Shown here in pieces: positions 41,209 through 55,922 of a stretch of 64,000 nt of DNA; position 1 is the first letter of the stretch, and each line of letters opens with the position of its first letter. This DNA is from Oceaniovalibus guishaninsula JLT2003 (GTDB taxonomy: Bacteria > Pseudomonadota > Alphaproteobacteria > Rhodobacterales > Rhodobacteraceae). The translations under genes were made by a program, and so were the position numbers. The stretch is taken from assembly GCF_000299575.1 (NCBI RefSeq), contig NZ_AMGO01000046.1, positions 1 to 64,000 on the forward strand. The letters run 5' to 3'. The notes beneath the pieces were generated by a model, which saw only the letters and a list, made by a program, of their open reading frames with translations, was not told the DNA's origin and made no database searches.

Positions 41209-43976
<2,768 letters not shown>

Positions 43977-44010
43977 GAGAGGATCTTTCTGCCTTTGGTG
44001 TCCGTTCTGT

Positions 44011-44042
44011 CCGGCGCTGTCCCACCCGAGCGGTCGCGCCGG
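44011..44042 (-). promoter_or_regulatory. Candidate leuA attenuator hairpin
   Basis: On the minus strand CCGGCGC (44042-44036) pairs exactly with GCGCCGG (44017-44011) between the leader peptide stop and leuA. A second pairing, GAGCG at the leader stop with CGCTC inside this loop, would exclude it. No T run follows, so a Rho-independent end is not proven. Confidence 0.45.
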
Positions 44043-44052
44043 AATGGCACGC

Positions 44053-44106
44053 TCAGGGCAGCGTAAGAAGCAGCGTTCCGCGAAGGGATGGCAGGATCGG
44101 GGTCAT
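44053..44106 (-). CDS. Leucine-rich leader peptide upstream of leuA
   Basis: 17 aa, MTPILPSLRGTLLLTLP, six leucines with three in a row near the end, followed by TGA 76 bases before the leuA ATG. This is the arrangement of ribosome-mediated attenuation at leu genes: leucine shortage stalls the ribosome on the leucine codons and changes folding downstream. A promoter ends six bases before the ATG, so the transcript would start at the A of the ATG. Too short for domain evidence; the call rests on composition, place and flanking signals. Confidence 0.72.
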   Translation of the reverse strand: MTPILPSLRGTLLLTLP

Positions 44107-44112
44107 GGCGAA

Positions 44113-44140
44113 ACTATAGCCCCGCTCTTTCGGATGTGAA
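44113..44140 (-). promoter_or_regulatory. Promoter of the leu leader and leuA
   Basis: Minus strand TTCACA (44140-44135), 16 bases, TATAGT (44118-44113); both boxes match five of six consensus positions. The expected +1 coincides with the leader ATG at 44106. Confidence 0.65.
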
Positions 44141-44199
44141 CCGGAAAAATGCACGGGGCGCGGAACAGCGGCGGGGGGGTGCCCCGTTGACGGTTGCAA

Positions 44200-44224
44200 G
44201 CCCGCGACGAGGAGTGTCGCGGGC
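44200..44224 (+). promoter_or_regulatory. Hairpin in the 5' leader of the EF-hand gene
   Basis: Perfect nine-base stem GCCCGCGAC/GTCGCGGGC with a seven-base GA-rich loop GAGGAGT, ending 26 bases before the ATG. It could be an RNA control element or an operator; nothing decides between them. Confidence 0.45.
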
Positions 44225-44250
44225 ACCGAACCGACAGAGGGAGACAGACG

Positions 44251-44811
44251 ATGACGTTTCGAAATCTGATGGCCACGACCTCCGCCGTTGTTCTTCTGGC
44301 CGCCGCCCCGGCGATGGCGCAGATGTATGAAGGGTACGATTCCACCCTGGGCTATGACGGGTTCCATACTGGGTTTACCGATAGCGGATACTACGATGCC
44401 TGGGACAGCGACGATTCGATGTCGCTGACGGAAAACGAATTCGCCACCGGCGTCTATTCCGACTGGGACAGGGATAATGACGGTCTGATCAGCGAGGAAG
44501 AATACGGGCTTGGTGCGAACCGCTGGTATGGTGACGACTACGATACCGCGTTCACCGACTATGACGCCGATGCCTCGGGCTTTATCGACCAGAGCGAATT
44601 CGGTTCCAACTGGGACAACGAATACTATACCGGTTGGGACAGCGACGGCGACAGCGAGTTGTCGGATACCGAGTATTCGCGGGGTGTTTACGGTCTGGCG
44701 GACCGCGATCAGGATACCGTGATCTCGATCGAGGAAGAAGGCTGGTTCGAGGGCTGGTTCGACGGCGACGACGTCGAGGCGGAGATCGAACAGGTCGGCG
44801 ACGTCCTGTAA
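44251..44811 (+). CDS. Secreted EF-hand calcium-binding protein
   Basis: 186 aa from the ATG at 44251 (GAGGGAGA upstream). Signal peptide ending AAAPAMAQ. The mature chain is very acidic and holds about five EF-hand-like loops spaced 25-30 residues: DSDDSMSLTENE, DRDNDGLISEEE, DADASGFIDQSE, DSDGDSELSDTE and DRDQDTVISIEE. Calcium binding in the periplasm or outside is likely. Its codon use is less GC-rich than its neighbours, partly because of the Asp/Glu/Tyr content. No partner gene is evident. Confidence 0.86.
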   Translation: MTFRNLMATTSAVVLLAAAPAMAQMYEGYDSTLGYDGFHTGFTDSGYYDAWDSDDSMSLTENEFATGVYSDWDRDNDGLISEEEYGLGANRWYGDDYDTAFTDYDADASGFIDQSEFGSNWDNEYYTGWDSDGDSELSDTEYSRGVYGLADRDQDTVISIEEEGWFEGWFDGDDVEAEIEQVGDVL

Positions 44812-55746: not shown

Positions 55747-55757
55747 CTGGCGGCGCA

Positions 55758-55922
55758 GCGACGGGAGAAGCCGGACCATGCCAGGCATGGCCCCGGTGCC
55801 GAAGGAGCAACCGCCCCGGTAAACTCTCAGGCAAAAGGACCGCCGCCGCGACGGACTCTGGAGAGTGGCGCAAGCCCGCCGACGGGATAGCGATCTCAGG
55901 CGACAGGACAGAGGGGGCATTC
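55758..55922 (+). ncRNA. Tandem glycine riboswitch
   Basis: Lies directly before gcvT. The first aptamer is marked by GGGAGA, GCCGAAGGAGCAA and AAACTCTCAGGCAAAAGGACC, then GGACTCTGGAGAG; the second by GCCCGCCGACGGGATAGCG, TCTCAGGCGACAGGACAGAG and GGGGCAT. This is the conserved core of the gcvT motif, with the two aptamers joined by a short linker. Glycine binding would raise expression of the cleavage system. Ends are approximate. Confidence 0.92.

Follow-up and report, generated by a model that had tools for sequence, protein, structure and literature searches.

The DNA upstream of leuA in Oceaniovalibus guishaninsula JLT2003 is rather likely to carry an alphaproteobacterial LEU element, by means of which a shortage of Leu-tRNA would stall ribosomes and so free the expression of leuA, probably at translation initiation. 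Seliverstov et al. (2005; PMC1262725) described an element of this name in the leuA leaders of Actinobacteria, and the label LEU-type element is used here instead of attenuation, with an output that is probably translational. The helices of the element and the selection on its Leu codons are shown by comparison among relatives; in which direction control runs, and at which stage (translation initiation, perhaps with Rho-dependent polarity), we infer.

Organization of the leuA leader in the window

The window is the whole 64,000-nt stretch of DNA that was analysed, and all the parts of the element lie on its minus strand. The leuA gene, which encodes a 2-isopropylmalate synthase of the TIGR00973 type, occupies positions 42405-43976 with its start ATG at 43976, and a gene for an EF-hand protein (44251-44811, plus strand) is divergent from it. 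The earlier note had claimed a promoter that stops 6 nt short of a leader ATG, and the coordinates confirmed it: the -35 box TTCACA (44135-44140), found in a promoter search, is followed by a 16-nt spacer, the -10 box TATAGT (44113-44118), 6 nt and the leader ATG (44106-44104). This promoter scored 10/12 in the promoter scan, and the region 43500-44700 contained two promoter-like sites compared to 0.3 ± 0.5 in shuffles. The leader ORF, MTPILPSLRGTLLLTLP plus the stop TGA (44053-44106), is probably leaderless and has 17 codons. Six of them are for Leu, three consecutive (codons 12-14) and three others, with Leu at positions -6, -5, -4 and -2 from the end. The stop TGA is at 44055-44053, and leuA starts 79 nt past its first base.

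Two pairings had been proposed downstream, and both are present. That of GAGCG with CGCTC proved longer than claimed, 8 bp with one U-G, and forms helix A, whose 5' arm CCUGAGCG (44050-44057) contains the leader stop codon and pairs with the 3' arm CGCUCGGG (44025-44032), a helix also borne out by the alignment of 64 sequences described below. An inner extension of helix A pairs UGCC (44046-44049) with GGCG (44040-44037), the latter being also part of helix B. Helix B, supported by its pairing and by the alignment, is the 7-bp helix between CCGGCGC (44042-44036) and GCGCCGG (44017-44011), without a U-run after it. Hairpin B has a slight edge in stability over hairpin A in the window (-19.6 versus -17.5 kcal/mol), and in the family consensus A (-22.7 kcal/mol) beats B (-13.8 kcal/mol). 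The fold of the window had a z score of -1.28 against shuffles, 20 of 200 of which folded equally well, and its stability alone was rejected as evidence.

Conservation of the element across leuA loci

The leuA loci were taken from the genus (14 genomes), from the family (243 of 246 genomes matching, from which 28 new loci and 80 chosen upstream stretches were fetched) and from 80 named loci. Among the latter, 52 (L016-L066 and L093) count as near relatives, judged from their similarity and their names; two of them are labelled Neomegalonema. With a leader defined as at least three Leu among the last nine codons before a stop upstream of leuA, 157 of 174 loci had one directly upstream of the gene, and in 155 the stop was embedded in TGAGCG. 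The apparent absence of the element from the remaining 17 loci was refuted by the RNA model, which recovered 15 of them: the element was next to leuA in two and upstream of a cupin gene in six, and longer fetches placed it further upstream in seven, six of them again before a cupin gene. In the 13 of these recovered loci that were checked further, the leader end contained four to six Leu in the 12 that were counted. The model gave no match at L061, and L062 has no upstream DNA and hence lies outside the testable set. Of the 173 leuA loci that could be tested in the family and its near relatives, 172 therefore carry the element.

Other DNA separates the element from leuA at 13 loci, and in 12 of these (L023, L030, L046, L113, L119, L123, L227-L231 and L233) it is a small cupin-domain gene, identified with Pfam in one example and by eye elsewhere. 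At L232 only a cupin-like start (HTINLAKG) seems to remain, judged by eye. At L254, leuA and its element are on pPAN3 of Paracoccus pantotrophus, a 1.5-Mb plasmid typed as conjugative.

After removal of identical rows, 152 distinct sequences of the 157 made up the set used for statistics; its loci are not independent, and some named and unnamed loci are from the same genome (e.g. L023 and L233). A second set of 64 non-redundant sequences was used for the helix alignment, with rows more than 80% alike to a kept one omitted, as were 10 unique loci in which the leader stop and leuA are over 110 nt apart. Sequence conservation of the core was very high in this alignment. The comparison across relatives that the earlier note had advised thus found the leader, its Leu codons and covarying helices all to be conserved.

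Selection on the Leu codons of the leader peptide

The expectation of a Leu-codon leader before leuA was borne out, as relatives keep a leader with a run of Leu. At codons -7, -6, -5 and -4, Leu was found in 130, 141, 136 and 152 of the 152 loci, respectively; these frequencies are somewhat inflated by the choice of rows for Leu, a choice that does not free third bases. In the same codons the entropy of the third base was 1.06-1.89 bits compared to 0-0.81 at the first two bases, with CTT, CTC, CTG and CTA all in use. The last codon of the leader was frozen as CTC in 131 of 152, as expected from helix A. Free third bases with Leu retained indicate that Leu itself is selected and that the peptide is translated, and on this comparison selection acts on the Leu codons of the leader. 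The untranslated gap between the leader stop and leuA was 65-220 nt long (median 79). A 1:2 pause hairpin like that of Escherichia coli was not conserved among these leaders, most of which have AGC CGC at that place, as seen by eye.

Promoter spacing and start of the leader

When the leftmost in-frame ATG was chosen blind to the promoter, a TAnnnT box ended 5-9 nt before it in 85 of the 152 loci, and before any in-frame ATG in 105, compared to one to six of 152 at eight control offsets. Alignment of these 105 loci gave the promoter consensus TTTtCa-16-TATagT, and the gap from the -10 box to the ATG was 5-8 nt in all 105 and 6-8 nt in 104, in loci preselected for TAnnnT at 5-9 nt. Binding of the anti-Shine-Dalgarno (SD) sequence upstream of the leader ATG averaged -2.1 kcal/mol compared to -3.4 kcal/mol before leuA; the window runs opposite to this trend, with -5.1 kcal/mol before the leader ATG and -4.2 kcal/mol before leuA. 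From the spacing of the promoter we infer the start site, and the leader is probably translated from a leaderless message.

Covariation of helices A and B

In the 64-sequence alignment, helix A was paired in 97.2% and helix B in 83.0% of the cells, and the whole structure in 90.9%, compared to 30.8-53.3% for controls in which it was slid. Seven of the 18 pairs changed on both sides versus 4.4 in shuffles (4 of 500 as high), and 51 cells had a double change versus 18.4 in shuffles, none of 500 of which reached that number. Helix B was unpaired at its outer and innermost pairs in 22-31 of the 64 sequences. The 4-bp inner extension of helix A was paired in 96.5% of the cells, but being mostly invariant, with a single cell changed on both sides, it is weak as covariation.

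Helices A and B had been described as mutually exclusive. Both exist, and the alternative pairing is conserved, but they are interleaved with no base in common, so a pseudoknot is possible; only through the inner extension, which uses bases of helix B, do A with its extension and B exclude each other. In this comparison with relatives, it is conservation and covariation that lift the fold above chance, not its stability in the window.

Helix C, between the Leu codons and the downstream initiation region

A third helix (C), overlooked in the earlier note, joins the Leu codons to bases lying ahead of the start codon of the next gene. The longest Watson-Crick run within a locus had a mean of 6.57 in the 152 loci compared to 4.78 ± 0.07 when the partners were shuffled and 5.22 ± 0.085 when they came from other loci; in the 64 non-redundant loci the mean was 6.58 versus 5.05 ± 0.135. 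As only 69 of the 152 loci had a run of at least 7, helix C rests elsewhere on the average and not on any single locus. The most frequent form, UCCUUAGC:GCUAAGGA, made up 16 of these 69 runs, and the helix covaries, as in CUACUAAGC:GCUUAGUAG, CUGAUCCUAAU:AUUAGGAUCAG, UCUUGGCU:AGCCAAGA and CUUCUUACGC:GCGUAAGAAG.

Where leuA is the first gene, 43 of the 69 runs placed the end of helix C 17-22 nt ahead of the AUG, off the SD. In the 12 loci where the cupin gene comes first (11 distinct), its runs were 5-9 bp long (mean 7.1, shuffled 4.1), and in 11 of the 12 (10 of the 11 distinct) it ended 5-10 nt before the start codon of the cupin gene, on its SD.

In the window, helix C is weak. Its tentative arms, CUGCUU in Leu codons 12-13 (44068-44073) and AGGCAG upstream of the leuA start (43989-43994), were placed in register by eye from loci of the same genus and give a 6-bp helix of -5.8 kcal/mol that includes one G-U pair. 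A base stem formed instead by GAUCCUGCC (44098-44090) and GGCAGAAAGAUC (43993-43982) is stronger (-10.6 kcal/mol). The copy of the element in the window is a divergent one.

Search for a terminator and folding with a stalled ribosome

Attenuation through an intrinsic terminator, as the earlier note implied, was not borne out. At least five T in the 8-nt window just after helix B were found in four of the 152 leaders, and no U-run follows helix B in the window, where the terminator scan found no intrinsic terminator. The longest run of T before the AUG did not exceed 4 in the leaders and was 1 in the window. Without a U-run after helix B, the element is not a classical terminator attenuator.

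Folding was repeated with the stalled ribosome masked, under an assumed footprint, for 149 of the 152 loci. The helix C zone opened in 90 of the 149 and closed in 13, and the SD zone opened in 53 and closed in 6. In the window, the predicted accessibility of the SD was 0.525 in both states, and that of the helix C zone fell slightly, from 0.717 to 0.603. The simulated masking is in line with the model across the set and not in the window. A ribosome placed at the stop codon also opened the helix C zone (mean 0.615 versus 0.593 for the stalled one), so the model needs kinetics or release.

Specificity and distribution

The covariance model built from the 64 sequences had a single match at E ≤ 1 in the O. 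guishaninsula genome (2.9 Mb), at leuA. Under strict filters, which lose weak matches, 20 of 387 genomes of the class matched at E ≤ 0.01, all 20 at leuA and 14 of them outside the family, and 367 had no match. In a sample of 299 genomes of the phylum, searched with the same strict filters, all 24 matches fell within the class, their positions relative to leuA aside, and one family genome (G033) had no match. With ordinary filters, 24 of the 28 named loci outside the near relatives (L067-L092, L094 and L095) gave matches of 20-38 bits (E ≤ 0.17) at distances of up to about 210 nt ahead of leuA, and L077, L079, L088 and L095 had none.

No Rfam 15 family matched at gathering score in the leader of the window or of 10 related loci, nor did any family match at seven further loci at E up to 0.05. 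Identity with a known Rfam leader was rejected, as the four weak matches in the window are not leucine leaders. One of the sRNA families, ar14, matched weakly at 44144-44267 (minus strand; 28.6 bits compared to a gathering score of 58.8), a stretch just upstream of the leader promoter with a hairpin loop ACUCCUC and a terminator-like hairpin ending GCATTTTT. As an sRNA beside the promoter this candidate is weak, being absent from seven related loci and from the genome-wide list. Genomes of the same genus contain rows of five to seven ar14-like matches that adjoin or overlap one another (e.g. G004:C13:64049-64621, G013:C2:217685-218214 and G009:C1:1995460-1996178), mostly below the gathering score and resembling arrays of repeated hairpins. 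Elsewhere in the window, a glycine riboswitch aptamer was detected at 55752-55852 (plus strand; 53.3 bits).

Full-text literature searches returned no alphaproteobacterial leuA leader of this kind; an earlier description is possible, the likeliest places for one, Vitreschak (2004) and Lopatovskaya (2010), lying beyond the coverage of those searches.

Comparison with known leaders

In E. coli and Salmonella, the leuL leader before leuA senses Leu-tRNA through its Leu codons; it bears an SD and is followed by an intrinsic terminator with a U-run. The Leu leader is common to both systems, whereas the U-run is absent here. Attenuation of leuABCD is named in PMC6123439.

The actinobacterial LEU element, as portrayed in the account given in PMC1262725, shares with the present one a leader ORF with a Leu run, interleaved helices (a pseudoknot), an alternative hairpin and the lack of a terminator. 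It differs in belonging to another phylum and to another type of leuA, TIGR00970 in the two actinobacterial proteins tested compared to TIGR00973 here. Its base stem between the Leu codons and the SD region (PMC1262725) is found in the relatives as a set; it falls on the SD in cupin-first loci, is offset from it in most leuA-first loci, mostly 17-22 nt before the AUG, and in the window amounts to a weak 6 bp. That offset, and the leader stop codon inside helix A, set the present element apart from the LEU element as PMC1262725 presents it. The same source relates that mutations in the leuA leader of Streptomyces coelicolor had some effect, though not the one that classical attenuation would give, reports a phylogenetic association of the element with orthologs of ML1624 and, in its treatment of the element, leaves the mechanism open.

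The alphaproteobacterial model was also run on four actinobacterial leuA regions (Nonomuraea, Nocardia, Microbacterium and a Streptomyces BHT-5-2 plasmid). It matched the leuA leaders of the first three with 28.1, 23.0 and 29.0 bits (rough E values of 3e-4, 3e-3 and 2e-4), compared to at most 9.0 bits elsewhere in those stretches, and found no element at leuA of the Streptomyces plasmid. The three leader ORFs, with start codons set by eye, end in MLRGLLLSCRGGGL, MQRALLLGRRDGV and MQFGLLLLSCRDESSD, and their helix A is exact over 8, 10 and 11 bp. Helix B is exact (7 bp) in Nocardia, and by eye it is shorter or dependent on G-U pairs in Nonomuraea and Microbacterium. In these two, helix C is exact over 6 and 9 bp, respectively, and Nocardia has no exact one of at least 6 bp. 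A -10-like box, also located by eye, precedes the leader ATG by 7 nt in Nonomuraea, 6 nt in Microbacterium and 10 nt in Nocardia. Common descent of the actinobacterial and alphaproteobacterial elements would be plausible; their leuA enzymes are of different types.

Leaderless leader peptides as such are already known. The leuL1 leader of Streptomyces lividans (MRFGLLLLSCRGEGL), which like the present one lies before leuA, is reported to be leaderless by RNA-seq and to lack a typical Rho-independent terminator (PMC8079986); compared by its description, it differs in coming from an actinobacterium. In the alphaproteobacterium Sinorhizobium meliloti, the trpL (rnTrpL) leader peptide is likewise leaderless, and its translation was observed by Ribo-seq (PMC10117765). 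It differs in sensing Trp and in that its attenuator RNA is also a trans-acting sRNA, and pairing of its codons with a downstream SD is not among the features given in that description.

Discussion

In the proposed mechanism, RNA polymerase would start at the A of the leader AUG and the ribosome would initiate on the bare 5' end, translating a short ORF that has its Leu run close to the end. With ample Leu-tRNA, the ribosome would reach the UGA inside helix A, and helix B could then form. After its release, the Leu codons would act as an anti-Shine-Dalgarno-like strand, pairing with the ribosome-binding site of the next gene or with bases immediately before it (helix C), and expression should decrease. 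When Leu-tRNA is scarce, a ribosome stalled on the Leu run would cover its arm of helix C and leave the arm of helix A free, so that the A hairpin would form and the initiation region of leuA would stay open.

The main rival of this mechanism is Rho-dependent attenuation, in which the untranslated stretch exposed past the leader stop would allow Rho to terminate transcription at high leucine, a stalled ribosome and hairpin A would prevent it, and the output would be premature termination. The leader is strongly conserved yet has no intrinsic terminator, the gap before leuA (65-220 nt, median 79) is untranslated, and Seliverstov et al. raised this possibility for the terminator-less cys leaders of Actinobacteria (PMC1262725). 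We nevertheless regard it as unlikely, for it leaves unexplained that the Leu codons are matched to the next initiation region and, at the interposed loci, to the cupin SD. Classical transcription attenuation, with helix B as the intrinsic terminator and helix A as the antiterminator, is the model that the earlier note implied; two competing helices and a Leu-rich leader would suit it, but it is highly improbable given that a T-rich tract follows helix B in four of 152 loci and not in the window, that T runs do not exceed 4 and that the terminator scan was empty.

Still slightly less probable is an RNA fold recognized by a regulatory protein, with an incidental peptide, as proposed for the actinobacterial LEU element (PMC1262725). 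The very high conservation of the core and the possible pseudoknot would fit such an RNA; the freedom of third bases at codons -7 to -4, where Leu is kept, shows instead selection for translation, and close homologs of the proposed protein are reported to be absent outside Actinobacteria in the same account. That a short ORF and hairpins arose by chance in GC-rich DNA would be compatible with the non-significant fold of the window, but this explanation can practically be dismissed, as it is already refuted by the 172 of 173 testable loci, the covariation and the genome-wide matches, which at the positions checked were at leuA only.

A wider reading of the LEU-type element, offered tentatively as a possible one, is that of a single cross-phylum family of leaderless, terminator-free translational switches acting on two types of leuA. 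In such a family, the Leu run would be both the sensor and the effector, an anti-Shine-Dalgarno-like CUCCUU closing the ribosome-binding site of the first gene, and a ribosome stalled after starting on the 5'-terminal AUG would open it.

This type of element has so far been described mainly in another phylum, the Actinobacteria, and the leader studied here would be its alphaproteobacterial counterpart. The 152 distinct sequences, the covarying helices, the free third bases and the natural experiment provided by the cupin-first loci argue for a sensor read by the ribosome. The element brings the LEU mechanism within reach of experiments in tractable bacteria (e.g. Rhodobacter and Paracoccus) and is a widely distributed candidate for a regulatory peptide with leaderless initiation.
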